NCBI GenBank assembly: GCA_025617745.1
Contig: CM046861.1
Coordinates: 18,821,563-18,885,562 of the forward strand
DNA from: Heliocidaris erythrogramma
Taxonomy: Eukaryota > Echinodermata > Echinoidea > Camarodonta > Echinometridae
Direction: 5' to 3'
DNA length: 64,000 bases
Part shown: in pieces, positions 11,295 through 54,000 of the stretch
Position numbering within the stretch: position 1 is the stretch's first letter
Layout of the letters: each line of letters starts with the position of its first letter
Position numbers and translations under genes: made by a program
The notes under the pieces: generated by a model
The model's input: the letters and a program-made list of their open reading frames with translations, nothing else
Database searches by the model: none
What the model was told of the DNA's origin: nothing

Positions 11295-11364
11295 TCTTTG
11301 GTGTAATCCTATTTCCTTCCGCTCGAAACATGCCTCCCGGTCTTTGAGTTGGCGCTGGTCTGGC

Positions 11365-11456
11365 ATAATAGGTAGGTATATATGATTTATTGCAGTAAAT
11401 TTGTAAAATCAGCACTGATTTTCTTATTTACTATATAAATCTATATACCTACCTAT
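11365..11456 (+). repeat. Internal complementary region of DIRS element A
   Basis: It reads as the reverse complement of the left end (GGCATAATAGGTAGGTATAT through TTGCAGTAAAT) followed directly by the reverse complement of the right end (TTGTAAAATCAGCACTGATT through ATATACCTACCTAT). That is the complement of the joined circle ends, the template proposed for completing DIRS cDNA. Confidence 0.85.
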
Positions 11457-21157: not shown

Positions 21158-21204
21158 CCTTCCTCTTGGGACATGCCCCCCATTTGAATCTGTGCTGGTC
21201 TAGC

Positions 21205-32888: not shown

Positions 32889-34949
32889 GTGTGTCTCGGG
32901 TCCCGCCTTCTGAGCCGCAGCCAGCTCCTTCTCGCGGGAGAGGGAGTCGTGGCAGGGGCTTTTCGAGAGGTTCTCGTGGTAAGGCGACGGCTTCGCATAA
33001 GGCCAAGCCTGGGTTTTGATGTTTTTCCCCGAGCGTTTGTTCTTCCGAATTTGGTAGGTGGCCGACTTCATTCTTTTCTCCCCGCTTGGGAGGCCATCTC
33101 CGGGGACGCGTTTGTTCTCTCCGTCGTGCGAGACGGATTCTTCATAGATCTTTTCGCTTCGCTCCCCGGAGGGGCTATAAGAATTCGGTCACCTCCCATG
33201 TCTGCCCTGGCTCGATCTCATGCTTCAAAGGAGATCGAGTCTCTATTGGAAAAGAGGGCTATAGAAAGGGTAAGAGACAGGCCGTCTCTTTCCCTTTCTC
33301 CAATTTTTGTTATTCCCAAGCGCTCCGGAAAACTTCGTTTGATACTGAACCTGAAAAGAATAAACAAATTCATTCCTCCGGTTCATTTTCGGATGGAGAC
33401 TCTCGCCTCCATTCTTCCGTTGATCAAGAGGAAGGACTACGCGGTCTCGATAGATCTCAAGGACGCGTATTTTCACATTCCCATTCATCGCGCATCCCGC
33501 GATCTTCTGGGGTTCTCCTTTCTCTCAGAGACTTATCGTTTTCGTGCTCTTCCCTTCGGGCTGCGCCCGGCCCCTCGGGTTTTTACTCAAGTTGTAGCTG
33601 TGCTGGCGGCCTCTCTGAGGCGACGCGGCCTTCGGTTGTTTTGTTACCTGGACGATTGGCTTCTCCTTGCGGAGTCGCGCGATCGTTTGTTGGACGAGAC
33701 TCGTTTGCTCGTCTCTCTTACTCAAGACTTAGGTTTCCTAATAAATTGGGAAAAGTCAGAGTTAGTTCCTACTCGCAGCCCAGTTTTTACGGAATCAGTT
33801 GGCTCGGCCCAGTCGAGGCAGGATTCTCACCATTGTCTCTGCGGCTCGCAAGCTCTTGCTGGCCAGAAGGGTCACGACCAGACAGTGGCTTCAGTTTTTA
33901 GGTTATCTAGCCAGTCTAGTCGACGTTCTAGAGGACTGCCGGCTCCTCATGAGACCTTTTCAGAGACATCTCCTCAGGTTCTTCAGCCGGGAAAAGACTC
34001 TCTTTTGGTCTGGATTCCAGTACCAGTAAGGATCAAGTCTCTTCTCTCTTGTTGGACGAGCGAGGAGTTTCTCGCGCGAGGCAGGTCCTTCACTGCCCCT
34101 CTCCCGTCGATCTCGGTTTCGACGGACGCCTCTCGGTTGGGGTGGGGAGGACACTGCAACGGCAGCACGGTTGCGGGGGATTGGTCTCATCTTGGGACTC
34201 TTCCTCATATCAATGTCCTGGAGTTTATGGCAGTTCTGTTGACCTTGCTCCATTTCAGAAGTCGACTTCTCAGTCGTTCGGTTCTGATTCTCACGGACAA
34301 TGTTACTGTGGCGGCATATATCAATCGGCAGGGAGGCACTCGTTCGGCTGCCCTGAATGCCCTAGCAGCTCAGCTGTGGAGGTGGTGTCGTCGCATGGCG
34401 ATCACACCCGTGGCCTCTTTCATCCCCGGTCGGGAAAACCTCATTGCGGATTTTCTGTCTCGGGGCAGGTATCTTCCATCGGAATGGATGCTCCATCCGG
34501 AGGTCTTTTGCCGCATTCGCAGTTGCCTAGGTCCACTGGAAGTGGATCTATTTGCGTCGGTGCTAAACCACCAGCTGCCGAAGTATTGCTCCCGTGTTCG
34601 CGATCAGGGAGCATGGGCTCTCGATGCTTTCTCCCTCAGCTGGGAGAACCTTCAGGGATTCGCCTTTCCTCCCTTCCAACTGATTCCGCGTGTCTTGCGG
34701 AAAATCAGGGAAGATCGGGCGCGGGTGCTTGTAATAGCTCCCTTTTGGCCCAGGAGGAATTGGTTTCCAGAGCTTATGAGCCTCCTAAGGGCTCAACCGT
34801 TCGTTCTCCCGTTAAGAGCGGTTCTGGTGTTGCAGCCCCTCTCGGGGATTCTTCACCACAGTCCGGAGTCCCTTCATTTGACTGCTTGGCCCCTGTCAGG
34901 GAATCTGCAAGACAGTCGGGTCTCTCTGATAGAGCCGCGGACTTTTTAA
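32889..34949 (+). pseudogene. Reverse transcriptase / RNase H polyprotein of DIRS element C, two frameshifts
   Basis: RT motifs are present as in A, and C retains the stretch A lost (FTQVVAVLAASLRRRGLR). CYLDDWLLLAES is intact. About 23 bases are missing at about 33790 (the LGAVLDIR codons), which puts 33790-33985 out of frame. A one-base loss in CTTCAGCCGG near 33985 returns the original frame, so RNase H (VSTDASRLGWGGH, TDNVTVAAYINRQGG) and the C-terminal domain are again in frame to the TAA at 34949. The out-of-frame block covers the RT thumb region, so the product is probably inactive. Confidence 0.85.
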
Positions 34950-35917
34950 TGTCCAGTCGTAGGGTTTCTACTAGGGAAATTTACAATTCCCGTCTGTCGG
35001 TCTTTTTCCTTTGGTGTAAAGAGAGAAATCAAACCCCTTCTAAGGCTCCTATTGGTTCAATTGCGGATTTCTTAATCTCGTTATTTGACAAAGGGAGATC
35101 TATCTCTACTATCCGAGGCTACCGTTCGGCGATCGGGGCCATTCATTCGGGTTTCTCAGATGGTTCGGGGATTTCCAATTCCCCGCTACTAAGTGGTTTG
35201 ATTCGCTCGTTCTTTCTGAAACGACCTTCTTTTTCTAAGTTAGTACCGTCTTGGAGTCTGCCTAAGGTCCTGGAGGCCTTGGCGAAACCTCCTTTCGAAC
35301 CGTTAGGTGAAGCTTCGTTTCATCTTACGGTTAAGACGCTCTTTTTGGTAGCTATTGCCTCTGGGTAGAGGCGCAGTACTCTTCATGCTCTCTGTCTTAC
35401 TCCTGGTCATGTTCGCTGGGAGAGAAAAGGCGTTAGATTGATTCCTAAGGCTTCTTTTATTGCCAAGAATCAGACAGCTGCCTCTGGCCCTGTTGAGATT
35501 TTTCTTTGTCCGCTTTCTGACTTTTCTTCTGTGCGCGAGGACAAAGTTTGGTGTCCTGTAAGAGCTCTCAAATGGTATATTGATAAGACTAAGTCTTATC
35601 GTAAGGATGATCAGTTGTTCCTGATCACTAGAGAGCCTTTTTCTCCTGCCTCTCCTGATTCCATCTCTAGGTGGATCGTCGAAGCTATTAGGGCCGCTGG
35701 CACAGAGGCTCTTTTATCCGACAGTAAGCCTCGTGCTCATGATACTCGTAGTGTCAGCACTTCTTGGGCTCTGTTTCAAGGTGTGGCGCTTGTTGATATT
35801 TTGAAGGCTGCTTATTGGCGTTCGTCCAATTCCTTCATTTCTTGCTACCTTAGGGATGTTCCCGCAGGTGAGGCTATGTTTGCGTCAGCCACCTTGAAGG
35901 CCGCTGTGTCTTTGTAA
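34949..35917 (+). pseudogene. Tyrosine recombinase of DIRS element C, nonsense codon at the catalytic Arg block
   Basis: ATG 34949 overlaps the RT stop (TAATG). The frame is continuous for 323 codons except for one TAG at 35366-35368, where A reads CAG within GQRRSTLHAL, next to the catalytic Arg. His-x-x-Arg (AHDTRSVSTSW), AYWRS and Tyr in ISCYLRD follow. A single C-to-T change explains the loss. The length defines the family enzyme at about 322 residues. Confidence 0.85.
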
Positions 35918-36116
35918 TCTTTGGTGTAATCCTATTCCCTTCTGCTTGAAACATGCCTCCCGGTCTTTGAGTTGGCGCTGGTCTGGCATAATAGGTAGGT
36001 ATATATGATTTGTCATAAATAAATTTATTCAATTTGTCTCCAACGGCCCACAAGGGGGTGACACACGCTACTGCTGTGTGATAGGTTGCCCGGGTGCTGT
36101 GAAAAAAATCACAGGC

Positions 36117-36189
36117 GGAACCGGGCGGGATTCGAACCCGCGACCTCTGGATTACTAGACCAGTGTCATAACCACTAGACCACCGGAGT
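36117..36189 (-). tRNA. tRNA-like gene, Thr(AGU)-like, array 1 unit 1
   Basis: A 73-nt cloverleaf-like sequence. The T arm GCGGG/CCCGC is perfect with loop TTCGAAT. The anticodon stem CTGG/CCAG closes loop CTAGTAA, giving anticodon AGT with T33. The D stem has three of four pairs. The A box TGGTCTAGTGG and B box GGTTCGAATCC match Pol III consensus. The acceptor stem pairs at only four of seven positions, so a working tRNA is doubtful; a tRNA-derived promoter unit is more likely. T7 follows. Confidence 0.5.
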
Positions 36190-36377
36190 GCCCTGAGTGA
36201 TCAGGTTCAAACTATCCCAATATGGGGACTATCAAGTCAAAGGTATTGAATTAATCCGTCGGGTGATATAATGTCATAAATAAATTTATTCAATTTGTCT
36301 CCAACGGCCCACAAGGGGGTGACACACGCTACTGCTGTGTGATAGGTTGCCCGGGTGCTGTGAAAAAAATCACAGGC

Positions 36378-36450
36378 GGAACCGGGCGGGATTCGAACCC
36401 GCGACCTCTGGATTACTAGACCAGTGTCATAACCACTAGACCACCGGAGT
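36378..36450 (-). tRNA. tRNA-like gene, Thr(AGU)-like, array 1 unit 2
   Basis: Copy of the tRNA-like sequence at 36117, 261 bp downstream, same strand, with the same acceptor-stem mismatches. Confidence 0.5.
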
Positions 36451-36732
36451 GCCCTGAGTGATCAGGTTCAAACTATCCCAATATGGGGACTATCAAGTCA
36501 AAGGTATTGAATTAATCCGTCGGGTGATATAATGTCATAAATAAATTTATTCAATTTGTCACACACACAGCAGTAGCTATCACACAGCAGTAGCGTGTGT
36601 CACCCCCTTGTGGGCCGTTGGAGACAAATTGAATAAATTTATTTATGACATTATATCACCCGACGGATTAATTCAATACCTTTGACTTGATAGTCCCCAT
36701 ATTGGGATAGTTTGAACCTGATCACTCAGGGC

Positions 36733-36805
36733 ACTCCGGTGGTCTAGTGGTTATGACACTGGTCTAGTAATCCAGAGGTCGCGGGTTCGAATCCCGCCCG
36801 GTTCC
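36733..36805 (+). tRNA. tRNA-like gene, Thr(AGU)-like, array 1 unit 3
   Basis: First copy in the right block, opposite strand to units 1-2. Identical cloverleaf. A T-rich terminator follows the short CTGTGA stem. Confidence 0.5.
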
Positions 36806-36993
36806 GCCTGTGACTTTTTTCACAGCACCCGGGCAACCTATCACACAGCAGTAGCGTGTGTCACCCCCTTGTGGGCCGTTGGAGACAAATTGAATAAATT
36901 TATTTATGACATTATATCACCCGACGGATTAATTCAATACCTTTGACTTGATAGTCCCCATATTGGGATAGTTTGAACCTGATCACTCAGGGC

Positions 36994-37066
36994 ACTCCGG
37001 TGGTCTAGTGGTTATGACACTGGTCTAGTAATCCAGAGGTCGCGGGTTCGAATCCCGCCCGGTTCC
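36994..37066 (+). tRNA. tRNA-like gene, Thr(AGU)-like, array 1 unit 4
   Basis: Same sequence as unit 3, 261 bp away. Confidence 0.5.
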
Positions 37067-37255
37067 GCCTGTGATTTTTTTCACAGCACCCGGGCAACCT
37101 ATCACACAGCAGTAGCGTGTGTCACCCCCTTGTGGGCCGTTGGAGACAAAATTGAATAAATTTATTTATGACATTATATCACCCGACGGATTAATTCAAT
37201 ACCTTTGACTTGATAGTCCCCATATTGGGATAGTTTGAACCTGATCACTCAGGGC

Positions 37256-37328
37256 ACTCCGGTGGTCTAGTGGTTATGACACTGGTCTAGTAATCCAGAG
37301 GTCGCGGGTTCGAATCCCGCCCGGTTCC
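37256..37328 (+). tRNA. tRNA-like gene, Thr(AGU)-like, array 1 unit 5
   Basis: Same sequence as unit 3; spacing 262 because of one extra A in the spacer. The T terminator run is 8 long here. Confidence 0.5.
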
Positions 37329-37473
37329 GCCTGTGATTTTTTTTCACAGCACCCGGGCAACCTATCACACAGCAGTAGCGTGTGTCACCCCCTTGTGGGC
37401 CGTTGGAGACAAATTGAATAAATTTATTTATGACATTATATCACCCGACGGATTAATTCAATATATATGATTT

Positions 37474-37797
37474 ATTGCAGTAAATTTGTAAAATCAGCAC
37501 TGATTTTCTTATTTACTATATAAATCTATATACCTACCTATGACCCTCCCTCCTTCCCCTCACCTTGCAAGCAACATGTTTCTACTTGGGGTTGCTCGCA
37601 AAAGAGGAAGATGGCCGTAGCGTGTTGACGCGCGTGAGTGGCGAAGGGGACAATAGGATTACGGGGGGTGCGCACAATATTGTGACTCATGTGTGTTAAA
37701 TTCTCGAAGGGGTCCCGTAGTCAAGACTACTGGCATAATAGGTAGGTATATAGATTTATATAGTAAATAAGAAAATCAGTGCTGATTTTACAAATTT
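37474..37797 (+). repeat. Right terminus of DIRS element C
   Basis: Remainder of the complementary region (to about 37541), the roughly 195-bp terminal segment in the same orientation as element A, and the outer inverted repeat ATAGGTAGGTATATAG onward to 37797. Confidence 0.8.
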
Positions 37798-39094
37798 ATG
37801 TGATGATGGGGGGGGGGGGGGGGGTCCAAACATGTTCCCTGATATTAAGCTCTATATGAGCAAACACTGTGATATCTGACGGATGTCGAGAAAAGTTATT
37901 TTAAAATAATAATGTGCTATCTTTATGTTTTCTATTAAATCAGAATATTTTATTTGATATGATTTATGGAAATTATCGGGATTATAGACCTGTCATGTAA
38001 TTTTATTAGCCTTATTCTTTTAAAAGTCAAGACAGAAAAGGCTTTAATAAAATGCGTGCGAGCAATTCCTATAAAGATTAAATTAAGAGTGGCGTATCCA
38101 AGATTATATATCTAGGAATGTACGTGCCCCTATGTGCCAGCCCAAACCAAATCTGACATATCTTAGTTACACATCGAATGAAAGGAAATGTGTACCCCCC
38201 CCCCCCCGCACAGAAAGAATCAGAAAACTGTGATAATTTTTTTCCTTGCTTGTCCTAACATTCAAAATAGAATGCATCTGATGATTTTCTTTTGTTCGTC
38301 AGGCGTGAGCCTCCCCCTCCCCTTGCATTCCTGGATACGCCACCAATATAACCAACTTAGCAATTGGAACAAAACAATTTTTTTTTTTTAATGATCTCTT
38401 ATTGCTTTTCCCCCCAATCTTTCAATTTAATGAGATGGACCACCAACACTATATACAATCCTATTCTTCACATCCATGACAGAATAGCAGGGGCGGATCA
38501 AGAGGGGCGAATCGGCCGCGGCCCCCTTCTTGAAACCCAAGTTGGCATATACGGGCTCTTGCCTAAATTGTGAAAAAAACCCGGATCGAGCACCAAATTT
38601 AGTTTGGGAGCCCACAAGGCTAACAATGTCGTTCTATTAAACCTCCGAGAAAAACTTGTAAAAAGGCCCACCCCCCGTGACAGTCCGGGCAGGGATCAGT
38701 GGCGGATTTAAGGGGCTTTAAAAAAGATTGTATCCCCCTTTTAGAACTGATAACTTTTTTTTGCTTGTCAGAGAATTATGGAGGAAAACTGGATCCATAA
38801 AATCTGATACCCCTCCATGCACTGAGCGACTTTCGGAGGGCTGGCGAGAAGAAAATTTTTGCCACCTCTGGTACATTAGAAATACAATAGTGAACTGGAA
38901 TTTAGTTATAGAGTTTCTTCTGTTCTAACCGGCTAGGCTAGGTTTGCTTTCGGGCGGACATACGTCTGCTACATGGTCGTCTGCTAGTGCACGATCTCAT
39001 TGGATGTCGTCGATCTCACGTGATCGGTACACGCCCACATTAGGTCATCGATAACAAATATTGGAAGTCACGTGTAGTATGGTAAATTATTTTT
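37798..39094. other. Gene-poor stretch with MITE fragments and poly-G/poly-C tracts
   Basis: A G18 run at about 37807-37824 and a C run at about 38196-38207. Fragments with GGGGCGGATCAAGAGG (38489) and CAGTGGCGGATTTAAGGGG (38697) look like ends of the MITE family at 25662. No gene recognised. Confidence 0.35.
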
Positions 39095-40090
39095 TTTTGG
39101 TCAAAAGCATGCATATTCCCGGGGATTTATGGGGGATTTATTGGACTCATCGAACCTCAATTATACCCTTTCAGAACTTTAAATTTCATGTAAATCACAT
39201 TTTTCATAATTTCAAATAAATACTAGGGGAATTAAAATCATTTCAAAACCCCTGTGTTCATGGGTTAACCTATGGGAGCTAGAAGGCCAAAAGCATGCAT
39301 ATTCCCGGGGATTTATGGGGGGGGGGGGGGGGGGTTTACTGAACTCATCAAGCCTTAATTATACCTTATCAGAGCTTTAAATTTCATGTAAGTCACATTT
39401 TTTACATTTTCAAAGAAACACAAAGGGAATTACCATAAAATTCCTTGTTTTCGCGTGTTAACCTATATGGCAGGCGAGACGTTTTTGGTCAAAAGCATGC
39501 ATATTCCCTGGGATTTATGGGGGGGGGGGGGTTTACTGGACTCATCAAGCCTTAATTATACCTTTTCAGAGCTTAAATTTCATGTAAATGACGTTTTTTA
39601 TATTTTCAAATAAAAATTATGGGAATTATAATCATCCTAAAATTCCTTGTTTTCGCGCGTAAACCTATGACATGCAGGAGAGACTTTTTTTGGGGTAAAA
39701 AGTATGCATATTCTCGGGGATTTATGCCGGGTCTATTCAACTAGTTGAGTCTTAATTATACATTTTTTAGAGCTTTAAATTTTATTCAAGGCACATTTTT
39801 CAAAATTTTGATTTAATTCTGCGGGAACTATAATCATTAAAAAAATCCCCGTTTTTACGTGTTAACCTATCGGAGATGGAAGGCCAAAAGCATGCATATT
39901 CCCGGGGATTTATGGGGGTCCCTTGCACCTTTTGAGCATTCATTAAGCCTTTTCAGAGTCTCAAATTACATGTAAGCCACATTTGCACTAAATTCAAGGT
40001 AATACTAGAGGAACTATAATCATTTTTAAAATCCATGTTTTAACGTGTTAACCCTATGGCAGATGACTCTGTTAAAAAGCAGGCATGATC
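39095..40090 (+). repeat. Diverged tandem repeat, about six units of 186-207 bp
   Basis: Each unit begins GGYCAAAAGCATGCATATTC, then CGGGGATTTATGGGG (often with a G run), then AGCCTTAATTATACC, then TTTAAATTTCATGTAA, then GGGAATTATAATCATT, and ends near GTGTTAACCTATGG. Unit starts are near 39099, 39285, 39487, 39694, 39882 and about 40070, with increasing decay. No coding. Confidence 0.7.
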
Positions 40091-41389
40091 CAAGGGATTC
40101 ATAGCGGCATTTATTGACAAAAAAGGTTAAAGAAATGTTGTTTTAACTATCCATCCTTTTTCTCGTGCAAATCGGGGTTACTATTTACGGGTCGAATTGG
40201 GAAATGAGTGCCAAAGATGGCCAAATCCCAAACCTTTGACCAAAACTTAATACACACAACACTATAGTGCTCGTGTGCAACTGAAAAAAACCAACATGAA
40301 CACAGCAGCGTGATTGGTTAAAAGTATGCATCGCTTCTTCCATGAATATAGGCGTGATGGATTTGGACAGTTGTTAATATACATTAAAAAAAAAAGGGTA
40401 CTTTTTTTTAGGTACTTTCATTGCTTAAGTTTGGTTTTATGAAGTCAGTCTATTTGAGGCTGAATTATTTTCAGTACGATTAGTTATTCTAGGATTTAAG
40501 AGAGGAGAAGTTGTGTTTGATTACAAAAATTGTAAATCAAAGGCCACCAAAATAATCAGAATTGACATGGTACAAGCCCCACTATTGGTCTGTTATAACG
40601 CTCTATTGCGATGACGTAACAAAGTTGATATTGAGAAAGTACAATGACATTACTATTACCGCTTGTCGTGGGGTCCGCGTATTACGCTTACTTCAGGGCG
40701 TGGCTGGGGCGTGGTTGGAGAGTTGAATACATAGACAAATTAAATTGCAGAACAATGACGCGCGTCAAGCGCTGCGTGACCGCGCCCATGCAGGTACGTA
40801 ACAATTTTGTAAATAAACCACATTCTCTTTGCATCTTTGCGATTTTGAGAACGTAAGTTCTGCCAATTTTTTTTTTACAGATTTTGACTAATTTCCTTGT
40901 GTTCTAAAGCTCCCGTTTACAACCGCCATGTCAATATCTTATCATTACACATCATGTAATAACTTGAGCAAGTTTGAAGCGAAATGGAAGAATATTCTAA
41001 ACGTAAAAAGAGAAAATAAGTTGATATTTTTCAAATGAAAACACACATGTCCGCTAACCGGACAATTGGGACAAACATTGTTGCATTACATGGAGGGGTA
41101 CGGTGGGGTTGAGATTGCCAATATTATGTTCGGGAGGCCGCGATCTCATATTCGAAAACTTATTTGTAAAAGGTCATCATATTTCCGCCGGATGCCGCCG
41201 GATGCCGCCGGGGCCCGTGCACTCCAGTACCCCGGCTCCCAGGTCCATGACTAGTACGGTTGGACCTACCCCTTATCGACCGCCTAGTGTTAAAATCACG
41301 ATTGCTACAATATTGTCAAATTTACCTACAATTGATCTATCTTGGACGAAAAATCCCGCAGATTCACGTCATTGCATTCCACAATGATG
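40091..41389. other. Gene-poor stretch upstream of a LINE
   Basis: No gene recognised. A GC-richer patch at 40664-40800 has a GCAG/GTACGT donor-like site near 40793. A CGGATGCCGC direct repeat is at about 41185-41210. Confidence 0.3.
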
Positions 41390-43759
41390 ACGGGTTTTTG
41401 AACAAATCACCTGGAAGTGATGGACTCAGTATGGAATTTTATAAATGTTTTTTGGGGGACATTAAACATATGGTAATTGACAGTCTGAATGAGGGTTACG
41501 ACAAAAAACAGTTGTCCTGTACACAAAGTCAAGCTATCCTTACTTTATTGTATAAGAAAGGTAACAAAAATGTTTTAGATAATTGGCGACCTATTTCGCT
41601 GTTAAACATTGATTACAAACTTGCAGCTCGGATTCTTTCAATACGATTACAAAAAGTAATCTACAAACTTGTATCAGAGGATCAGGCTGGTTTTTTAAAG
41701 AATCTCTCTGCATCTGAATGTATTAGACTTATTTAGGATACTATTGATTATTGTCTTCTTGAAAATAAACAAGCTGTTATGATGTTCTTGGATTTCAAAA
41801 AAGGGTTTGATAACATTGATCAGTATTTTCTATTTTCCTTGTTACAAGAACTTAAATTTAAAGATTCGTTTTTGAGATGGATTCAAACACTATACAATGG
41901 TGCTCATGGTCGTGTCTTAAATTTTGGTTGGATATCAGAGAAATTTGCAACAGAAAGAGACGTTAGGCAAGGCTGCCCACTTTCAGCCCTTTTATTTATA
42001 ATTGTTGCAGAGGTTTTAGCTATGAGAATTAAACAAAACACTAAAATAAAAGGAATCCAAGTCCCATACTTGAATGAAGATAAATCTGATTTTAAAGATA
42101 TATACGCATCGTCCAATATGCAGATGATACGACTATTATTACTAATTCTGTTCAGTCAATAAAAGAAATAATGAAAGAAGTAGAAATGTTTGGAGAACAT
42201 GCGGGAACAAAAATCAACTGGACCAAATCAAATTTTATGAAATTAAATATGAATCATGTTGAAGTTAAAGATTTACATTTTACCGAAGATCCAATAAAAT
42301 GTCTTGGTGTATATGTAGGTAAAAATAGTTCTGCCGTCCAAGACCTAAATTGGGAAAGTAAAGTGGAAAAAATAAAGAATACAATAGATTTATGGAAAAT
42401 GAGAAAACTAACACTATATGGAAAAGTTGTTGTAATTAAACTGTTATGTCCCAGATAGTACATACTGCTACGGCAGTCCCGATCCCTCCTAAAATAATAA
42501 GACGTATAAATAAACTAGTTTACTCATTTTTATGGAATTCTAAAAAATAAAAAGTGAAACGAAACATTTGTTACAATCCTGAAGTAGAAGGAGGGTTAGG
42601 GATGGTAGATTTAGAGTCGAAATGCCGATCACTTCGTCTATCATGGATTTGTAAATATTTGAGAAATGAACAAAATGCTTCGACAGTTCTGTTCGAATAT
42701 TGGACTCAGAAAATTGGGAAGGTGCCTCTTTGTTTGAATCTTAATTGCAAAAAGAGTGACATGTATCATATTTGTAGGAAAAGAAAGTTGCCTAACTTTT
42801 ATGTTGACATGTTTTGTTCTTGGGCTGAACTAAAATATATTGATATGTTTAAAGTCACAGATATAGAAAATGAAATAATCTGGTATAATAGTAATATTAA
42901 ATATAGGAATGAGTTATTGCATTTTCCAAACTGGAAAAAAAATAATATCCTTAAAGTAAAGCAAGTCTTAGCAAATGGTATTTGGAAAAAAGTTGATTCA
43001 ATTTGTATTGATTTTCAAGAAAATGAATTACTTTGCTCCTTTAAATTGTCAAAGTTAAAAAGTGCATTTCCGAATTTTTGGTTACAGAAGTTACGTAATA
43101 GGAGGCAATATGTAAATGGTTCACCGTCTGAAGTGGAATCCAGTTCAATTGAAATGGTAACAGGTGACTCCATTGAGGTCGCGGGCATGAGAGCCAAACA
43201 TTATTATAATATGATGTTAGAAAGAAATAAACAAGAACTGCCGTGTATTTATTTTTGGAACGCTTATTTTGAATTACCGAATGACTTTGATTGGAAGTCA
43301 GTACTTTATTTTAAATTTCACTTTATAAATGACAACAAAATTAAGCAGTATAATTTTAAATTTATCCACGGGATACTACCCTGCAAAGACAACTTATGTA
43401 AATGGAAGATTAAAAATGACAATTTATGTAATATTTGTAAGATCCCAGAAACAAGCAACCACCTTCTTTTTACTTGCAAAAAAGTTTCGTTATATTGGAA
43501 GATTTCATTTAAATTAATCGATAGTTTATTTAATGTAAGAATTGTTTTGAACGAACAAATTTTGTTAATCGGTTATGAAATAGAGAAAAAGGAAATGAAT
43601 ATAGTAAATCTTATGTTGAATTTTGCTCAATTTATTATTTATAGAAATTATATCAGAGACTGTTTTGGAAGTAAAAATCACACGATGAATGCTTTATATT
43701 TATTTAAAGAATTAAAGTTTGAAATAGATCATATCTTCTGTCTGGGAATTTGCTACTAA
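41390..43759 (+). pseudogene. 5'-truncated L1/Tx1-like LINE ORF2, decayed
   Basis: RT fragments appear in successive frames. 41390-41736 has KSPGSDGLSMEFYKCF, LLYKKGNKNVLDNWRPISLL and EDQAGFL. 41779-42162 has LDFKKGFDNIDQYFLF and RDVRQGCPLSALLFIIVAE. The YADDTT active site (near 42117-42130) lies across a frame break. 42171-42458 has WTKSNFMK and KCLGVYVG. 42554-43759 (401 codons, open) carries the C-terminal domain with the zinc-binding-like CNICKIPETSNHLLFTC. Order and motifs fit the L1/Tx1 group. The endonuclease is missing, and an in-frame TAG at 41734-41736 plus shifts show inactivity. AT-rich codons match the local composition, so it is old. Confidence 0.8.
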
Positions 43760-44205
43760 AATGCCTGCAAGATTATCGGGAAAAAGAACAACTCCGGGAA
43801 CAACTTGCTCTAAGTCTTATCTTATTTTTTGACTGTCTAATAATGGTTAAAATGCATGTATCATTTTGACCTCATATTATCTAAGACTTGAAAATGCATT
43901 CATTAAACAATCAAACAACTAATTCATATTGATAAAAGCGTAGAAGAAAATATGAGTAGTTCAGGATTATCTTTCCCCACCATCTCTGGCGGGCCGGCCT
44001 GTGCATGTGACAAAATATATCACAATCATAACAAGATGTCAGTAGACCTAGAAATTAATATTCCAGTAGGAAAGCAACTTATCTTTATTGATAGGAATTA
44101 GAAAATAGATTAAACAGTAACACATCAATTATAGGGAAAAAATAATGTTTAATTGTTTCATTGTATATAGAGCCTGGCATCCCAGCTATGTGGAGGAGCT
44201 GATGC
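43760..44205. other. Non-coding stretch
   Basis: Probable LINE 3' region then AT-rich DNA; nothing recognised. Confidence 0.3.
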
Positions 44206-44346
44206 ATGGGGACAGCAATCGCAAAGTCTGAGAGGAAGAGGGAAGCAGCAGAAAGGAGGGCAAAAAACATCATAGACAAGTACCTGGATCAGGCCATGAT
44301 GAAGATCCAGGTCTTGGAATTGGAGCTGGCTCAGGCCAGACTGTAG
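44206..44346 (+). CDS. Small coiled-coil-like ORF, possible exon
   Basis: 46 codons, charged and helical: KSERKREAAERRAKNIIDKY then MMKIQVLELELAQARL with heptad-like Leu spacing at its end. GC-richer than the flanks. An in-frame stop lies 4-6 bases before the ATG, so any upstream exon would have to splice in. No family recognised; it could be the end of a transposon-derived DNA-binding gene. Confidence 0.25.
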   Translation: MGTAIAKSERKREAAERRAKNIIDKYLDQAMMKIQVLELELAQARL

Positions 44347-44833
44347 AGAGACGATGCTCTTAAGATCTCCAAGTAAACTATTCGATTTCTTGTGTTTTCA
44401 TATTATCCACATATAATGTTATATTCATAGTGCTTTGAACCTTATATCGATTAAGTCAGATCCATGTTGTCATTTCATCTTCAATGTATGATGAGTAGGC
44501 CTATGATGTTTAATAGGAATTCTTATTAATATTTTCTTTCTGTTTTTTTCTTTTTAGGACCTAACTTGGCAGCTAGCCCTTGTCTCCCCTCCTGCCTCTT
44601 ACCACAACCCTCGTGCCTCTTGGTAAATACTTAAACACATACCATATTAAAAATAAATTATTAATACAAACGGCTCTTCAAAAAGTAGATTAATCTAAAC
44701 ACTAATTCCCAATTAATTAAGACCAACGGTTCATGTCGACATACCTTCACAGACCTACATCCCAACAAGAATAACAGAAACAAACACGAAAAAATTGAAT
44801 TTCTAATTTTCGTTTTTGTTGTCCCTTGACTAG
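44347..44833. other. Spacer with splice-acceptor-like sites
   Basis: T-rich runs ending in CTTTTTAG (about 44558) and CCTTGACTAG (44833) are acceptor-like. No ORF of note. Confidence 0.25.
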
Positions 44834-45122
44834 GTGTTCAGGAGGTAACCCTCAAACACCCTCTACAGCACCAATAGGCGATCAGGTAGCACCCGGCAGC
44901 TGCCCATCTACACCCGACAGCTGCCCATCTACACCAGACGCAACATCATACAACCTATCTACACCAAGTAGCACCATACAGGCTACACCAGGCACAATAC
45001 CATACATCCAATCTACACCAAGCACAACACCATACATCCCATCTACACCAGACACAGCACCATATTACCCATCTACACCTGACACAGCCCCCATTGACAC
45101 CATCCCATTACCCCTGATGTAA
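44834..45122 (+). CDS. Thr/Pro-rich repeat ORF, possible terminal exon
   Basis: Open after an acceptor-like TTGACTAG; it ends at TAA 45120-45122. The peptide is built of repeated P-[SY]-x-P-S-T-P-[DS] units (about eight), such as CPSTPDSCPSTPD and PYIPSTPDTAPY. Disordered and mucin- or linker-like. Low complexity means it could be a coding-looking minisatellite. No function assigned. Confidence 0.3.
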
Positions 45123-45740
45123 GACTGAAATAAATTTATAGGTCGAATTATAGTTATAAAGCTAATAAATCACTGCTCTAAATGGATTACAAACCAAGGG
45201 AATATCAGAAAGTGGGCCTGAATATTGTCAGTTGGGTTTATTAATTACTCTCTTAATTGCAATCTGTGCAAATCATGCAAAAATATTTTGATAATTGAAA
45301 CATGCACAGACGGTGACGAAGGACATTTGTCCTCACCTCGATGGGAGATGTTACGACCAACGCCGATCTCACCGCCATCGGCAACATCTGTCGACAGAAC
45401 TCCCACCTCTGTCGACCTAGCATCGACGAAGTCGTAGACGAGAGGGTGATGTAGACGAACACTGTATTCGATAAAGAATTATCAAGCCACATTTTGTTTA
45501 ACTTACTATAAATGTTCGAATATTACTCAGAACCCGGTTTAGATAATATGCAACGTAAACAAAAGATATACTAAAATTAATTTCTTAATACAGTTAGTTG
45601 ATACAAGGCAATGGTGAAACGAAAGAAATTTCTACAGAAACAGAAAGAGACAAATACAATACGGCAATTCTTAATTCCTGGAATGTAATTATCTAGTCTG
45701 TTCGTATACCAAAGCAAATTTTATAGACATCTTAAAATGA
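45123..45740. other. Spacer with one small ORF
   Basis: A Ser/Thr/Pro-rich frame at about 45305-45437 (HLSSPRWEMLRPTPISPPSA) is GC-richer than its flanks but has no recognised domain. The rest is AT-rich. Confidence 0.25.
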
Positions 45741-46408
45741 CCCACTCAATGCAAGAGTTAATGTCGCCAAATGTCTTGGTATATTAATGGATGAAGAACT
45801 GAATTGGTCCAAACACGTTGACAAAGTAACAAAGGTAACGCAGAGAAATGTCAGTGTAATAAAAGAAGCGAAGGATTATTTACCATTAACATCTTTAAAG
45901 ATGCTGTATAATGCACTCGTGTTGCCTCACTTTGATTATTGTTCCTCTGTATGGTCAAATCGATATCAGGAACAAACGTATAAGTTTCAGAAAGTTAAAA
46001 AACGAGCTGCTAGAATAATTTCAAACAAAGTTATGAGACTCTATCAAGTGAATTAATTAGCAATCTGAATTAATTAGCAATGGATGCCAATTGAGAAACG
46101 ATTTGAATTTAAGCGTGTTACTATGATGTTCAAGTGCACACATAACTTGGCACCATCCTATTTACAAGGATGTTTAGTTAAAGTAAGTGACAATCATCAG
46201 TATCATACGAGGCAGGCTTACTTTCTGTGCCAAAGTACAAAAAAGAATGCTTTAAACATAACCCCCTCGTATCTTCAATTATAGCATGGAATCAGTTGGA
46301 CAGATCACTAAAAATGGCAAGCTCTGTGAACACATCTAAATATACGGTATGTTCAAAAGATCTTGCAATATCTGTTCCCAATAAGAATTGCAAGAAGAAT
46401 TTTATTTA
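45741..46408 (+). pseudogene. CR1-like LINE 3' RT fragment
   Basis: Frames at 45741-46056 and 46084-46284 read KCLGILMDEELNWSKHVDKV, LPHFDYCSSVWSN, QKVKKRAARIIS, then PIEKRFEFKRVTMMFK and LAPSYLQ. This is the thumb/C-terminal part of CR1-group reverse transcriptases, which typically read LDYC..VW and LQ..Q..AAR.I in this region. One frameshift separates the halves, near 46057-46083 where an AATTAATTAGCAAT motif is duplicated. No catalytic part remains. Confidence 0.65.
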
Positions 46409-46788
46409 GCTTCTTAGCTGAAGTTTTACTCCTTATCGCATTTCTATACGCATTCTCTTGTGAAAACAAACGATTGGTTTGATTCGTTTTCTAACAGCAT
46501 GGTAAATGAGTCATATTCATTCTTATTGCTAGAAAATCTCACTTGATGCTATTTTATTTTTGTCTTCATCAGAAATATGTCATTTTTTGTTCCCCTGATT
46601 TGCAAAATATGTTTGATGGTTTGTTTCTTTGCCAAAAAATGTACGATGACATAATTCTTTTCAAAATTTATGAATGATTTCATATCATTTGTATTGTATT
46701 GATATTTTGTATTGTTTTATAAGAGACACTGTACATTCGATTGATAAACTTTATTACATGCAATCATTGTGTAAACTTTGAATAAGTA
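46409..46788. other. AT-rich non-coding stretch
   Basis: Nothing recognised between the LINE tail and array 2. Confidence 0.3.
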
Positions 46789-46897
46789 TACTACCCTATA
46801 ATATTTTTAATTTGTAAACAAATCTTTCGGCATATTACTCCCAGTGTTAAAGATCGTATGCTCGATCTATAATGAAAAACACAAGTCAGAAAAAATT

Positions 46898-46970
46898 GGA
46901 ACCAGCATTATTCGAACCTGTCATCTACTGCTTGCCGGGCAGCGACTTAACCACCAGGCTATTCTGGTTC
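46898..46970 (-). tRNA. tRNA-like gene, array 2 unit 1 (variant)
   Basis: Same as the other array 2 copies but with AGCATTATTCG in place of AGCGGGATTCG, which damages the T arm and B box. Outermost left copy. Confidence 0.4.
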
Positions 46971-47187
46971 ACGGCCAAGTCACGACGAACTAGAATCAAA
47001 TACCCAAGATCCTCTTCTTTCTGACTCATTAATATTCAAACGGTCCGCCGTGGAACAATGGTTAGTAAACGAAGAAGCTTGACTGGGGAGGAATTTTTAA
47101 TTTGTAAACAAATCTTTCGGCATATTACTCCCAGTGTTAAAGATCGTATGCTCGATCTATAATGAAAAACACAAGTCAGAAAAAATT

Positions 47188-47260
47188 GGAACCAGCGGGA
47201 TTCGAACCTGTCATCTACTGCTTGCCGGGCAGCGACTTAACCACCAGGCTATTCTGGTTC
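47188..47260 (-). tRNA. tRNA-like gene, array 2 unit 2
   Basis: 73 nt with a perfect 7-bp acceptor stem GAACCAG/CTGGTTC. A 5-bp anticodon stem GCTGC/GCAGT closes loop CCGGCAA (anticodon-like GGC, but C where T33 is expected). B box GGTTCGAATCC is perfect; the A box TAGCCTGGTGG is near consensus. The D arm starts two bases late and the T stem has mismatches, so it is better read as tRNA-derived than as a working tRNA. Confidence 0.45.
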
Positions 47261-47477
47261 ACGGCCAAGTCACGACGAACTAGAATCAAATACCCAAGAT
47301 CCTCTTCTTTCTGACTCATTAATATTCAAACGGTCCGCCGTGGAACAATGGTTAGTAAACAAAGAAGCTTGACTGGGGAGGAATTTTTAATTTGTAAACA
47401 AATCTTTCGGCATATTACTCCCAGTGTTAAAGATCGTATGCTCGATCTATAATGAAAAACACAAGTCAGAAAAAATT

Positions 47478-47550
47478 GGAACCAGCGGGATTCGAACCTG
47501 TCATCTACTGCTTGCCGGGCAGCGACTTAACCACCAGGCTATTCTGGTTC
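47478..47550 (-). tRNA. tRNA-like gene, array 2 unit 3
   Basis: Identical copy, 290 bp from unit 2. Confidence 0.45.
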
Positions 47551-47767
47551 ACGGCCAAGTCACGACGAACTAGAATCAAATACCCAAGATCTTCTTCTTT
47601 CTGACTCATTAATATTCAAACGGTCCGCCGTGGAACAATGGTTAGTAAACGAAGAAGCTTGACTGGGGAGGAATTTTTAATTTGTAAACAAATCTTTCGG
47701 CATATTACTCCCAGTGTTAAAGATCGTATGCTCGATCTATAATGAAAAACACAAGTCAGAAAAAATT

Positions 47768-47840
47768 GGAACCAGCGGGATTCGAACCTGTCATCTACTG
47801 CTTGCCGGGCAGCGACTTAACCACCAGGCTATTCTGGTTC
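47768..47840 (-). tRNA. tRNA-like gene, array 2 unit 4
   Basis: Identical copy, 290 bp from unit 3. Confidence 0.45.
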
Positions 47841-48054
47841 ACGGCCAAGTCACGACGAACTAGAATCAAATACCCAAGATCCTCTTCTTTCTGACTCATT
47901 AATATTCAAACGGTCCGCCGTGGAACAATGGTTAGTAAACGAAGAAGCTTGACTGGGGAGGAATTTTTAATTTGTAAACAAATCTTTTGGCATATTACTC
48001 CCAGTGTTAAAGATCGTATGCTCGATCTATAATGAAAAACACAAGTCAAAAATT

Positions 48055-48127
48055 GGAACCAGCGGGATTCGAACCTGTCATCTACTGCTTGCCGGGCAGC
48101 GACTTAACCACCAGGCTATTCTGGTTC
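48055..48127 (-). tRNA. tRNA-like gene, array 2 unit 5
   Basis: Identical copy; the downstream T run is shortened to T5 by the 3-bp deletion. Confidence 0.45.
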
Positions 48128-48344
48128 ACGGCCAAGTCACGACGAACTAGAATCAAATACCCAAGATCCTCTTCTTTCTGACTCATTAATATTCAAACGG
48201 TCCGCCGTGGAACAATGGTTAGTAAACGAAGAAGCTTGACTGGGGAGGAATTTTTAATTTGTAAACAAATCTTTTGGCATATTACTCCCAGTGTTAAAGA
48301 TCGTATGCTCGATCTATAATGAAAAACACAAGTCAGAAAAAATT

Positions 48345-48417
48345 GGAACCAGCGGGATTCGAACCTGTCATCTACTGCTTGCCGGGCAGCGACTTAACCA
48401 CCAGGCTATTCTGGTTC
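48345..48417 (-). tRNA. tRNA-like gene, array 2 unit 6
   Basis: Identical copy with the full-length terminator region. Confidence 0.45.
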
Positions 48418-48631
48418 ACGGCCAAGTCACGACGAACTAGAATCAAATACCCAAGATCCTCTTCTTTCTGACTCATTAATATTCAAACGGTCCGCCGTGG
48501 AACAATGGTTAGTAAACGAAGAAGCTTGACTGGGGAGGAATTTTTAATTTGTAAACAAATCTTTCGGCATATTACTCCCAGTGTTAAAGATCGTATGCTC
48601 GATCTATAATGAAAAACACAAGTCAAAAATT

Positions 48632-48704
48632 GGAACCAGCGGGATTCGAACCTGTCATCTACTGCTTGCCGGGCAGCGACTTAACCACCAGACTATTCTG
48701 GTTC
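48632..48704 (-). tRNA. tRNA-like gene, array 2 unit 7
   Basis: Copy with the 3-bp terminator-side deletion and one substitution (CCAGACTATT for CCAGGCTATT) in the D arm. Confidence 0.45.
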
Positions 48705-48918
48705 ACGGCCAAGTCACGACGAACTAGAATCAAATACCCAAGATCCTCTTCTTTCTGACTCATTAATATTCAAACGGTCCGCCGTGGAACAATGGTTAGT
48801 AAACGAAGAAGCTTGACTGGGGAGGAATTTTTAATTTGTAAACAAATCTTTTGGCATATTACTCCCAGTGTTAAAGATCGTATGCTCGATCTATAATGAA
48901 AAACACAAGTCAAAAATT

Positions 48919-48991
48919 GGAACCAGCGGGATTCGAACCTGTCATCTACTGCTTGCCGGGCAGCGACTTAACCACCAGGCTATTCTGGTTC
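48919..48991 (-). tRNA. tRNA-like gene, array 2 unit 8
   Basis: Last copy of the left block before the inversion; 3-bp deletion type. Confidence 0.45.
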
Positions 48992-49256
48992 ACGGCCAAG
49001 TCACGACGAACTAGAATCAAATACCCAAGATCCTCTTCTTTCTGACTCATTAATATTCAAACGATTATAGATCGAGCATACGATCTTTAACACTGGGAGT
49101 AATATGCCGAAAGATTTGTTTACAAATTAAAAATTCCTCCCCAGTCAAGCTTCTTCGTTTACTAACCATTGTTCCACGGCGGACCGTTTGAATATTAATG
49201 AGTCAGAAAGAAGAGGATCTTGGGTATTTGATTCTAGTTCGTCGTGACTTGGCCGT

Positions 49257-49329
49257 GAACCAGAATAGCCTGGTGGTTAAGTCGCTGCCCGGCAAGCAGT
49301 AGATGACAGGTTCGAATCCCGCTGGTTCC
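49257..49329 (+). tRNA. tRNA-like gene, array 2 unit 9
   Basis: First copy of the right block on the opposite strand, followed by TTTTTT. Confidence 0.45.
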
Positions 49330-49546
49330 AATTTTTTCTGACTTGTGTTTTTCATTATAGATCGAGCATACGATCTTTAACACTGGGAGTAATATGCCGA
49401 AAGATTTGTTTACAAATTAAAAATTCCTCCCCAGTCAAGCTTCTTCGTTTACTAACCATTGTTCCACGGCGGACCGTTTGAATATTAATGAGTCAGAAAG
49501 AAGAGGATCTTGGGTATTTGATTCTAGTTCGTCGTGACTTGGCCGT

Positions 49547-49619
49547 GAACCAGAATAGCCTGGTGGTTAAGTCGCTGCCCGGCAAGCAGTAGATGACAGG
49601 TTCGAATCCCGCTGGTTCC
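49547..49619 (+). tRNA. tRNA-like gene, array 2 unit 10
   Basis: Second copy of the right block, 290 bp from unit 9. Confidence 0.45.
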
Positions 49620-49755
49620 AATTTTTTCTGACTTGTGTTTTTCATTATAGATCGAGCATACGATCTTTAACACTGGGAGTAATATGCCGAAAGATTTGTT
49701 TACAAATTAAAAATTCCTCCCCAGTCAAGCTTCTTCGTTTACTACCCTATAATAT

Positions 49756-50857: not shown

Positions 50858-51094
50858 GAAGCTGAACTCAACTGATAACCTTTTGTTTGAAAGGAGTGCA
50901 TAAACAGTTTGGAGGGGGAACGATCCTCGTGGGAGATCGGATTTTGACATTTTTCAGCCTAAAGTTACCGTCGATTGTAGATGGAACTGCGTCAGTGCGT
51001 GAGTAACTTTCGCAACACGTACCGTACATGTAGTACGTCCCACTGACTTTCTACGTAGACTCGTGTGTGTGTGTGTAGTTTGTACACAAACAAG

Positions 51095-54000
51095 ATGGCG
51101 GCGCCCAGTGGGTACATCGGCCGTCTCGGAACTTACGACAAAGCTCGAGAGCCTTTCGAGTCATACACAGAAAGAATGGACTTATTCTTCACGGCTAACA
51201 ACATTGTTGAAACTTCGCCGACGGATTCGACAACCCTTGACCGTAAGAAGGCTATATTGTTGACTGAAATTGGTCCTGAAACATACGCCATCCTCAGTCA
51301 CTTGTTGGCTCCGCAGAAACCAAAAGACTGTGCATTTGCTGCAATCATCGAGAAACTGAAGACTCATTTTGATCCAAAACCATCTGAGATAGCGGAGAGC
51401 TATAAGTTCAATACGAGAACACAGAAGAATGGAGAGACAATCAGCGAATTCATTGTTGCGTTGAAAAACTTGTCCATACATTGTAACTTTGGAGCGTTTC
51501 TAGATCGAGCCCTACGGCTACGGGACAGATTTGTTTGTGGATTGGGAGACGAGCGAATTCAGGGGAAATTGCTGAACACACCAAATCTGACATTTGCTAC
51601 AGCGACCCAGGCAGCTCTGGCTATGGAGATGGCTGCTAAGCAGGCCAGAGCACTACATTCACCGGCGGCAACGGGAAGTGTGCACAGCCAGAGAAGTCGG
51701 CCGAGGCAGAGCAAGCCCAAACAGAAAAAGGCACCACGTCAAGGTGCGGAGTGCTATCGCTGTAGTTCAAAAAGTCACGCCCCGGCAGAATGCCCGTTTA
51801 AGACTGCACAATGTTTTAATTGTGACAAGAAAGGACACATCTCCAAAGCGTGTAGATCGGCAAAGTCTAGTGGACCAAACCGGAATAAGCAACGCAAACC
51901 TGGTGCAGTCCATGCACTAGATGAGACAGACGAGGTACCGACATCCATGAAGCCGCAGCGTGATCTCGATTTGTATTGTGTATATGCGACCGAGTCGGGC
52001 AGTCCGAACAAATACGAGACTGAAGTGGTAATCAACGAAAGGAATATATTGATGAGGGTCGATACCCAGGCTGATTGTTCGCTTATGAGTAGAGACACTT
52101 ATGACAAATATTTCAGCCAGATACCGTTGCGTCCCATCGAAGTTAACCTCAACACATATTCTGGGGAACAATTGCGTATGGACGGACAATTTGATTGTGA
52201 AGTGACCTATAGAGGTCAAACACTGCGTTTGCCTTTGATGGTGTCCAGCTATAGGAGAAGGCCTACGCTGATGGGCAAGAACTGGCTGTCCAAATTGAAG
52301 CTGGATTGGAACACAGTGTTCCATGTCGAGGAGTCTGCGACGCTGAAGAAGTTGCTCGATGAGTATAGCAGTATGTTTGAGGACAGCTATGAAGGAATCA
52401 CTGGTGAGGAAGCGCATGTTCGTATCAAGGATGGTGCAGCTCCAGTCTACTGCAGGCCACGTCCGGTGCCATACGCGCTTAAGGAGGTGGTTGAGAAAGA
52501 ACTGAGAAACCTGGAGAAGAACAACGTTATAGTGAAAACGGACTATAGCGAATGGGCAACACCCATAGTTGTCGTGCCGAAGGCAGATGGATCGGTGCGG
52601 TTATGCGGCGACTACAAGACCACGGTCAACAGAGCAGTTGATGATGAGTGTTATCCTCTACCGACATCGCAGGATCTGTATGCAGAGTTGGGAGGTACAA
52701 AGGTCTTCACGAAATTGGATCTGTCGCACGCGTATGCTCAGCTCAACCTGGATCAACAAAGTCAGGAATTTCTCACGATCAACACGCACATGGGGCTATA
52801 TTCATACACAAAGTTGCCCTATGGTGTCAAATCCTCCCCGAAGATTTTCCAGTCGATCATGGATAAGTTCCTTCAAGGCATTCCCCACTGTTTGTGCAAT
52901 CAGGATGATGTGTTAATCGCTACAGCGACAGTGGAGGAAAATTTGGAAATCCTAGCTCAAGTGTTGAAGCGGTTGAATGATCACAATGTGAAGCTCAAGG
53001 AAAACAAATGTGCCTTTGTGAAAAGTGAAGTGGTGTACCTCGGGTTGAAAGTCAGCTCACAGGGGCTGCAACCCGTCAAGGAGAAAATTGAGCCAATCAT
53101 CAATGCCCCGCAGCCGAAGAATGTGACCGAGCTCAGGTCATTCTTGGGGATGGTTCAGTTCTACTCGCGATTCTTGCCGGATCTCGCGTCAGTTTTGGCC
53201 CCTCTACACAAGCTGCTACAGAAAGATGAGAAGTGGGCGTGGTCAAAACCTCAACAGGAAGCGTACATGAAATGTAAGCGCATGTTGACCAGCGATGCAC
53301 TTTTAGTTCATTATGACAACAAACGCGAGTTGAGCCTAGCTTGTGATGCATCGAATTATGGTGTTGGAGCAGTGATCAGTCATGTCATGGATAACGGAGA
53401 AACAAAGCCGATAGCGTTTGCATCTCGCACGCTGACGAAGAGTGAGCGTAACTACGCACAAATTGAGAAGGAAGCGCTAGGAATCGTGTTCGGCATAAAG
53501 AAGTTTCATCAGTATCTGTTAGGTAGACATTTCATGTTGCTCACAGATAATAAGCCGCTACTTCACATTTTGGGTCCTAAGTCGTCAATCCCGACAATGG
53601 CAGCATCACGTATGCAGCGATGGGCAGTACTTCTGTCGCAATACGACTACAGCATCGAGTACCTTAGTTCGAAAGAGAACGCGGTTGCAGATGCGTTGTC
53701 CCGTTTGCCACATGAGGATTCTGAAGATGGTACAGAGGGTACCATTTATGTGACTGATGTAGTGGACAATGACTTTCCGGTGACAGCAGCAGAGATTGCT
53801 GCAGAGACCAAGAAGGACTCTGTGCTCAAGCAAGCATATGAACAAACTTTGTACGGTTGGTCAGAAACAGTACCTATGAATGATGATTTGAAACCATATC
53901 ATAGTAGAAGATTTGAGTTGTCATGTGATCAAGGTTGTCTCAAATGGGGACATAGGGTGGTAGTTCCAAAATCACTGAGACAGAGACTTCTCAGTGAGCT

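Follow-up and report, generated by a model that had tools for sequence, protein, structure and literature searches.

The described systems closest to the structures presented here are Penelope-like elements (PLEs), animal retrozymes of the non-LTR (long terminal repeat) kind, SINE-like hammerhead satellites and tRNA-derived short interspersed elements (SINEs). The structures themselves are two tandem arrays of tRNA-like units (array 1 and array 2), located in a window of 64,000 nucleotides (nt) of the genome of Heliocidaris erythrogramma (G000:C9:18821563-18885562; the genome amounts to 1.06 Gb in 26 contigs), and the array 1 and array 2 families to which they belong, hereafter A1 and A2. Each array is made of two opposed arms, the outer ends of which fall at one or the other of two neighbouring positions of the unit, named X and Y. 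With a probability of about 0.8, we consider A1 and A2 to be two sequence-unrelated, non-autonomous retroelements inserted by PLE enzymes, to which the cutting, priming, joining and one-arm steps would be due.

The PLEs of Adineta (Pen families; PMC3846280) and of Anolis (Poseidon; PMC11167929) present head-to-head termini, short target duplications, tandem copies and an optional tail of approximately 31 to 40 nt on one of the two inverted ends; in the former report, one end carries an inverted pseudo-long terminal repeat (pLTR) in head-to-head arrangement, and one of the inverted copies may have an additional 31-bp tail (PMC3846280). The purified Anolis protein cuts both target strands and extends them, with reverse transcription initiated at two neighbouring sites inside the RNA; the stretch between these sites corresponds to the tail seen in the genome. 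Insertion persists in hammerhead mutants, and a multi-copy PLE mRNA was proposed by the authors (PMC11167929). The arrays share with PLEs the head-to-head sense 3' termini, the tail of roughly 30 to 40 nt on one inverted end and the short target duplication. Unlike PLEs, they lack an open reading frame (ORF), their units of 261 and 290 bp being too short to encode reverse transcriptase and GIY-YIG endonuclease (the enzymes are found elsewhere in the genome); moreover, they contain a tRNA-derived cassette in the unit, reach up to about 60 tandem units, have no detectable hammerhead where PLEs carry one in the pLTR, and show no sequence relation to the autonomous PLEs in 13 sampled local regions.

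As for SINE-like repeats, the Sm-alpha satellites of schistosomes have an RNA polymerase III (Pol III) promoter, and tRNA-derived SINEs, which possess a tRNA-derived head with A and B boxes, are non-autonomous and generate target duplications, as the arrays do. However, the arrays differ from tRNA-derived SINEs in being concatemers in two orientations and in having outer ends like PLE start sites; at the loci read, among which short copies are under-sampled, neither a tail typical of long interspersed elements (LINEs) nor an A tail was seen. The Sm-alpha repeats (335 bp) resemble them as small SINE-like repeats, but they carry a hammerhead, and no X/Y head-to-head ends were seen in the available text (PMC8490949). 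Animal non-LTR retrozymes are likewise non-autonomous, with short tandem units of 150 to 450 bp (a range that includes 261 and 290 bp), duplications longer than 4 bp and a presumed circular RNA template; they are defined by a type I hammerhead, which was not found in the arrays, and in the available part of the report no head-to-head X/Y ends were seen, the word "inverted" being absent from the main text (PMC7229834). Both elements are retrozyme-like and PLE-insertion-like, yet neither the hammerhead of the former nor the coding capacity and sequence relation of the latter was found in them.

Array 1 (36011-37463) consists of a minus-strand arm of 2.1 units of 261 bp, a 16-bp filler and a plus-strand arm of 3.4 units, and array 2 (46803-49744) of 7.8 minus-strand units of 290 bp (some of 287 bp) followed by 2.35 plus-strand units. 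The initial annotation of this DNA had described tandem units with a single strand switch and outward-facing genes in both arrays, and the coordinates agree with it, as do, for array 1, the five tRNA-Thr(AGT)-like genes identified by ARAGORN, all facing outward. The target duplications that it had placed at the borders of both arrays were found as well, as 12-bp copies of TATATATGATTT and as copies of TACTACCCTATAATAT; the true duplication of array 2 may be shorter than 16 bp, because 2 bp at the end of the left copy and 5 bp at the start of the right copy also match the unit.

Every unit of both arrays carries a perfect B box (GGTTCGAATCC) and a run of six T residues (T6) located 2 to 9 nt beyond the tRNA-like part, in accordance with the consensus B box and T run already recognized in each unit; together with the A box, these elements constitute, at the sequence level, the tRNA-derived Pol III promoter of SINEs. 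The spacers of the two arrays are unrelated (best local alignment of 16 columns, score 18), in line with what had been stated. The tRNA-like parts have a 22-column stretch in common, which begins with the B box and extends to the acceptor end. Three of the seven acceptor pairs are broken in array 1 and two of the five T-stem pairs in array 2, and neither tRNA looks fully functional. In array 2 no tRNA was detected by ARAGORN, nor by Rfam at its cut-offs, and a permissive scan returned tRNA-Sec at 19.4 bits, under the cut-off of 47.

The A1 unit has at least 284 matches in the genome and the A2 unit at least 185, spread over many contigs. For A1, we read 24 of at least 38 clusters (hand count) and dropped L077, which is cut off, and an array on contig C12 that ends in a gap, leaving 22; for A2, all 33 clusters among the matches listed (hand count) were used, with the exclusion of a second, cut-off array at L056:1-485. 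The A2 loci come from contigs C1 to C9 only, since the best-scoring candidates alone were scored. The loci read are arrays of at least 1.28 units without an A tail; they were picked by full-unit matches, and short copies are under-sampled. The tests on end phases and end repeats concern 54 arrays, from which the array on contig C15 was excluded, and the X/Y classing concerns 55.

With unit phases counted from the start of the tRNA-like part, the outer ends of A1 fall at phases 177 to 187 (X) and 194 to 215 (Y), with a single exception at phase 5, and those of A2 at phases 137 to 169 (X) and 190 to 200 (Y), with a single exception at phase 102, so that X and Y lie about 30 nt apart on the unit. 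This clustering is pronounced in both families (Rayleigh p of about 2e-13 for A1, n = 35, and about 2e-21 for A2, n = 59), and the inner ends, spread round the unit, are not significantly clustered in either (p = 0.45 for A1 and 0.096 for A2). Two opposed arms, each terminating outward in a sense 3' end, are present in 41 of the 55 arrays, and the remaining 14 have one orientation. Among the 39 arrays with two classed ends, X stands opposite Y in 34 (11/14 in A1, binomial p = 0.029; 23/25 in A2, p = 1e-5), the class borders having been fixed after the ends were seen and a wider X border giving 24 such arrays for A2. As regards the side on which X lies, A2 is balanced (12 X-left, 11 Y-left), and in A1 X-left prevails (9 to 2). 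Each of the 14 one-arm arrays terminates at X or Y on one side, while the opposite side is a 5' end of scattered phase, the pattern left by conventional target-primed insertion when the 5' part is truncated; an end repeat of at least 9 bp is found in 10 of them (the others being L063, L044, L045 and L059). In nine of the 14, checked alongside four two-arm arrays for comparison and leaving aside five of A1, no opposite-sense match longer than 8 bases, and hence no hidden short arm, was seen.

The largest array found, on contig C15 (L014, L010-L013; G000:C15:24455825-24471903), spans about 16 kb of the 261-bp unit, corresponding to about 60 units if unbroken, since it was read at 24454540-24457800 and 24465850-24473293 and its middle is known from unit matches only. 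Its left arm of 0.71 units ends at X and its long right arm at Y, and GAAAGATAATGT occurs at both sides; because of these ends and of the target repeat, it also looks like one insertion, perhaps later expanded.

End repeats of at least 9 bp were observed in 44/54 arrays, compared with 69/2862 mismatched left-right pairs, and repeats of at least 12 bp in 37/54, compared with 3/2862; in some of the former class the repeat does not directly abut the array ends (L050, L061, L074, L079 and the C11 array being clear cases). The commonest duplication length is 12 bp (16 of 34 arrays), and the target sites are A+T-rich as judged by eye only. Outside the duplications, the flanks read outward tend to GTTT on both sides, and G occupies the first outward position in 26/56 flanks (28 arrays), compared with a base frequency of 0.194; this symmetry suggests that one enzyme cuts each strand with the same preference.

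Two empty sites were also recognized. The joined flanks of array 1 match the paralogous element at 10986-11662 of the window at 96.3% over 678 columns, and the insertion at L062 has an empty relative in the window repeat 22915-23611 (83% over 740 columns, gap-free across the join). Unit blocks are 96.4 to 100% identical to the reference unit, and most variants are private to a single unit (with the exception of phase 82, where the A1 reference differs from most units), which makes both families look young. Array 1 and array 2 are genuine insertions, each with its target duplication, and belong to dispersed young families. Dozens of loci with differing duplications and the paralogous empty site of array 1 make it unlikely that the family as a whole is an artefact of assembly. 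The search for copies across the genome that the initial annotation had proposed bears out its description: the loci are dispersed, most have target duplications, and the head-to-head structure is recurrent.

Array 1 lies just beyond the last reading frame of a reverse-transcriptase element, which we take to be DIRS-like from its 3' protein and whose ORF at 32889-34946 has an RVT_1 domain; by similarity, related stretches of this element occur in the window at 10986-11662, 35600-37900 and 20855-21294. A perfect 61-nt inverted repeat (37481-37541 / 37738-37798) adjoins the array.

The inner joins are scattered over the unit. Filler is present in 11 of 41 (L077 being included in the 41), and the filler-free joins show microhomology of at least one base in 24/30 and of at least two in 16/30, against random expectations of about 0.44 and 0.16. 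This overlap in excess of the random-phase expectation points to microhomology-aided joining, and the likeness of the array 1 filler to the neighbouring unit sequence is what template slippage would give. Fold-back of the complementary DNA (cDNA) was considered as the source of the inversion and rejected, as the inner phases of the two arms are mostly non-coincident and the longer arm may be either the X or the Y one.

GIY-YIG sequences have at least 121 matches in the genome, and the sampled PLE L081 combines RVT_1 and GIY-YIG in one ORF. When the 3' end of L081 was used as a query, 40 of the 45 matches listed ran to positions 175-181, a result partly built in, given that the query ends at 181. 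In this family, among the matches listed (the best 40 of 850 candidates scored, with long Y-ended matches favoured), three of four head-to-head pairs consist of a Y-ended copy (177 or 181) and a copy with its end exactly at 141 (X), and one same-strand neighbour also ends at 141. The inspection by eye of the 3' regions places the ends near X in L082 and L091, and near Y in L081, L085 and L087. In a second PLE family, 33/40 matches end at 161-174 and 7 run on; copies that stop at X, being shorter, would not rank high enough to appear. A hammerhead-like core, searched for with a general consensus of the motif, occurs in 9 of the 13 regions downstream of GIY-YIG matches (8/12 by pattern, and L081 by eye). 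No partner PLE for the arrays could be identified from the sequences of the sampled copies.

Furthermore, A1, A2 and the two PLE families have in common a candidate priming hairpin, with a stem of 6 to 7 bp, a loop of 28 to 42 nt and an end located 15 to 24 nt before Y; wherever X is known, the loop holds it, 5 to 9 nt before the 3' arm. Taken singly, the hairpins of the two PLE families have p values of 0.080 and 0.043 (for those of A1 and A2, see Table 1), and an earlier form of the test gave 131 (A1), 252 (A2) and 357 (L081) of 2000 shuffles. Between the two PLE families the stem is preserved while its sequence differs.

Other features were noted in the sampled PLE regions. A tRNA-Arg(TCT) (65.5 bits, with a T6 run) lies at L081:299-370, about 125 bp upstream of the Penelope insertion; the flank beside L091 is similar to that of L081, by eye without the tRNA-Arg(TCT), and an unrelated SINE or tRNA gene is possible. 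At L090:780-1001 the 3' pLTR of a Penelope copy runs, by eye, into the apparent ORF start of another copy, forming a partial tandem, and in L087 (approximately 422-564) an insert of about 145 bp with inverted-repeat ends splits, by eye, the Penelope hammerhead region.

The fixed outer ends, the scattered inner ends, the duplications and the X/Y tail rule argue for a target-primed mechanism of the PLE kind. In the proposed scheme, the A box, B box and T6 of each unit form a Pol III cassette of tRNA origin, which is joined to a spacer with a PLE-type start region. A PLE endonuclease would cut the two target strands with a stagger of about 12 bp, often directly before GTTT, and each 3' end would prime reverse transcription at one of the adjacent internal template sites, X or Y, so that both outer ends of the insert would be unit-sense 3' ends. 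Each cDNA would then proceed several times round a circular template, or along a multi-unit one, and the joining of the two cDNA ends via microhomology or short filler would produce the single strand switch with outward genes; where one strand only is primed, a single-orientation array would result. Among the nearest ideas named by the initial annotation, namely SINEs, retrozymes and PLEs, the X/Y tail rule and the duplications thus favour Penelope, while the hammerhead of retrozymes was not found.

A number of observations weigh against insertion by PLE enzymes. Five of the 39 arrays break the X/Y rule (3 XX, 2 YY), and two more ends, in L064 and L046, lie at neither X nor Y. In the L081 family, the short copy of the fourth head-to-head pair ends at 77, again neither X nor Y, and the X/Y pairs themselves derive from the best 40 of 850 candidates, a sample biased to long Y-ended matches. 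The similarity of the A1 and A2 spacers to the 13 regions downstream of GIY-YIG matches did not exceed that of shuffled controls, most PLE copies being outside this sample. The Anolis enzyme preferred an ATT motif and not GTTT (PMC11167929). The hairpin is moderately supported at best, the combined p of 0.006 having been obtained with criteria picked after seeing the data. No hammerhead was found in the A1 or A2 unit by Rfam on the whole window at the gathering threshold, by permissive scans of stretches of about two units, in which only tRNA-type matches were credible, or by the core-motif search; the genome-wide search with the Hammerhead_1 model gave 0 matches, but it detected no control either and is uninformative. 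In addition, the T6 run directly past the tRNA part should halt Pol III before the X/Y region. Finally, 5/33 A2 arrays, including that of the window, have a variant carried by several units of an arm but absent from others, and such partly shared variants are less easily reconciled with a single monomer circle than with a mixed multimeric template or subsequent recombination.

The latter point concerns the template, for which we lean slightly toward a circle rather than a linear multimer. The copying of a circle followed by target-primed insertion had been proposed by the initial annotation; the target-primed, Penelope-kind part of that proposal holds for both families, but a linear multi-unit RNA could take the place of the circle, because PLE enzymes start inside the RNA (PMC11167929). 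A circle accounts for the seamless units and for arms of any length. The same PLE integration from a linear read-through transcript of a long existing array, such as that of about 16 kb on contig C15, is possible but rather doubtful: the existence of that A1 array, the partly shared variants, the internal start of PLEs and the multi-copy mRNA proposed for them (PMC11167929) speak for it, whereas an arm copied from a linear parent could be no longer than the parental one, so arrays should shrink at each round unless recombination lengthened them. Moreover, the A2 arm lengths follow an exponential distribution, as expected from an endless template (59 arms, mean of 2.6 units taken from the same data, Kolmogorov-Smirnov p = 0.55), with a poorer fit for A1 (36 arms, p = 0.07), the lengths being biased in both cases by the finding of loci through full-unit matches.

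It is improbable that the arrays were made from a multimeric RNA by twin priming in the course of target-primed reverse transcription of the LINE type. Twin priming, too, leaves duplications, a single inversion and an inner join with microhomology, and a reverse transcriptase with an Exo_endo_phos domain is present in the window; however, it predicts neither the same two adjacent outer phases nor the X/Y pairing in 34/39 arrays, no A tail is seen at the array ends read, and it is a local PLE family that has the X/Y pattern. Even less credit can be given to extrachromosomal circular DNA released from tandem arrays and integrated by end joining or by a DNA transposase. Tandem repeats readily shed DNA circles, and the units are seamless, but the outer ends are fixed and same-sense with scattered inner ends, and one-arm insertions exist, most of them with an end repeat. 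An ordinary tRNA gene cluster grown by unequal crossing over and local inversion can be practically dismissed, since, even though tandem tRNA genes occur in many genomes, the dozens of dispersed loci, the target duplications, the empty paralogous sites and the degenerate tRNAs refute it for the scored loci.

Returning to insertion by PLE enzymes, A1 and A2 might represent an undescribed class of Penelope parasites, an idea to which we would give somewhat less than an even chance: circles bearing a tRNA gene and devoid of ribozyme, of non-hammerhead origin, with a PLE start hairpin, on which a dimeric enzyme would act at X and Y of one circle. The simultaneous copying of one circle from both target strands would explain the near-constant presence of one X and one Y end. 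The tRNA part may drive, process or merely accompany the template. In the titles and abstracts of the open-licence literature, with subscription papers mostly outside this scope, no tRNA-bearing, hammerhead-free PLE concatemers were found described. PLE movement is largely obscure, and these recent, near-identical insertions seem to log at single-base resolution the reaction characterized in vitro in 2024, with its two start sites and the cutting of both strands; to this the arrays add the rule that usually one end lies at each of the two start sites. PLE-dependent concatemers seem to need no hammerhead, and small tandem retroelements may arise by routes other than the ribozyme. The presence of one architecture in two unrelated units provides, in this respect, a natural experiment on RNA recognition by the PLE enzyme.

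Table 1. Features of array 1 and array 2 (positions in the window)
Feature	Position	Strand	Remarks
Array 1 left target-site duplication, TATATATGATTT	36000..36011	.	Paralogous empty site known
Array 1 left arm, 2.11 units of 261 bp	36011..36560	-	Outer end at phase 179 (X)
Array 1 left-arm tRNA-Thr(AGT)-like gene, A box + B box + T6 run	36117..36189	-	
Array 1 left-arm second tRNA-Thr(AGT)-like gene	36378-36450	-	
Array 1 inner-junction filler, 16 bp	36561..36576	.	By eye like adjoining unit sequence CACACAGCAGTAG
Array 1 right arm, 3.40 units	36577..37463	+	Outer end at phase 207 (Y)
Array 1 right-arm tRNA-like genes	36733-36805, 36994-37066, 37256-37328	+	
Array 1 candidate priming hairpin, CCGTTGG / CCGACGG, 38-nt A+T-rich loop	36615..36666	+	p = 0.053 alone; X (phase 179, 36650) inside loop; Y (phase 207, 36678) past stem
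Array 1 right target-site duplication, TATATATGATTT	37462..37473	.	
Array 1 unoccupied paralogous site	11321..11438	+	Flanks joined with one duplication copy: gap-free, 117/118 bp
Array 2 left target-site duplication, TACTACCCTATAATAT	46789..46804	.	2 bp overlap with array
Array 2 left arm, 7.8 units of 287-290 bp	46803..49063	-	Outer end at phase 168 (X)
Array 2 left-arm tRNA-like genes, about 290-bp spacing	First 46898-46970	-	Read from sequence
Array 2 right arm, 2.35 units	49064..49744	+	Outer end at phase 198 (Y)
Array 2 right-arm tRNA-like genes	49257-49329, 49547-49619	+	
Array 2 candidate priming hairpin, ACTGGG / CCCAGT, 42-nt loop	49092..49145	+	p = 0.118 alone; X (phase 168, 49134) inside loop; Y (phases 195-199, 49161-49165) past stem
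Array 2 right target-site duplication, TACTACCCTATAATAT	49740..49755	.	5 bp overlap with array

Elsewhere in the window, positions 55815-58726 hold a large tandem array (periods: 62, 124 and 186 bp), about 1 kb from a Gypsy-like ORF (51065-54748).

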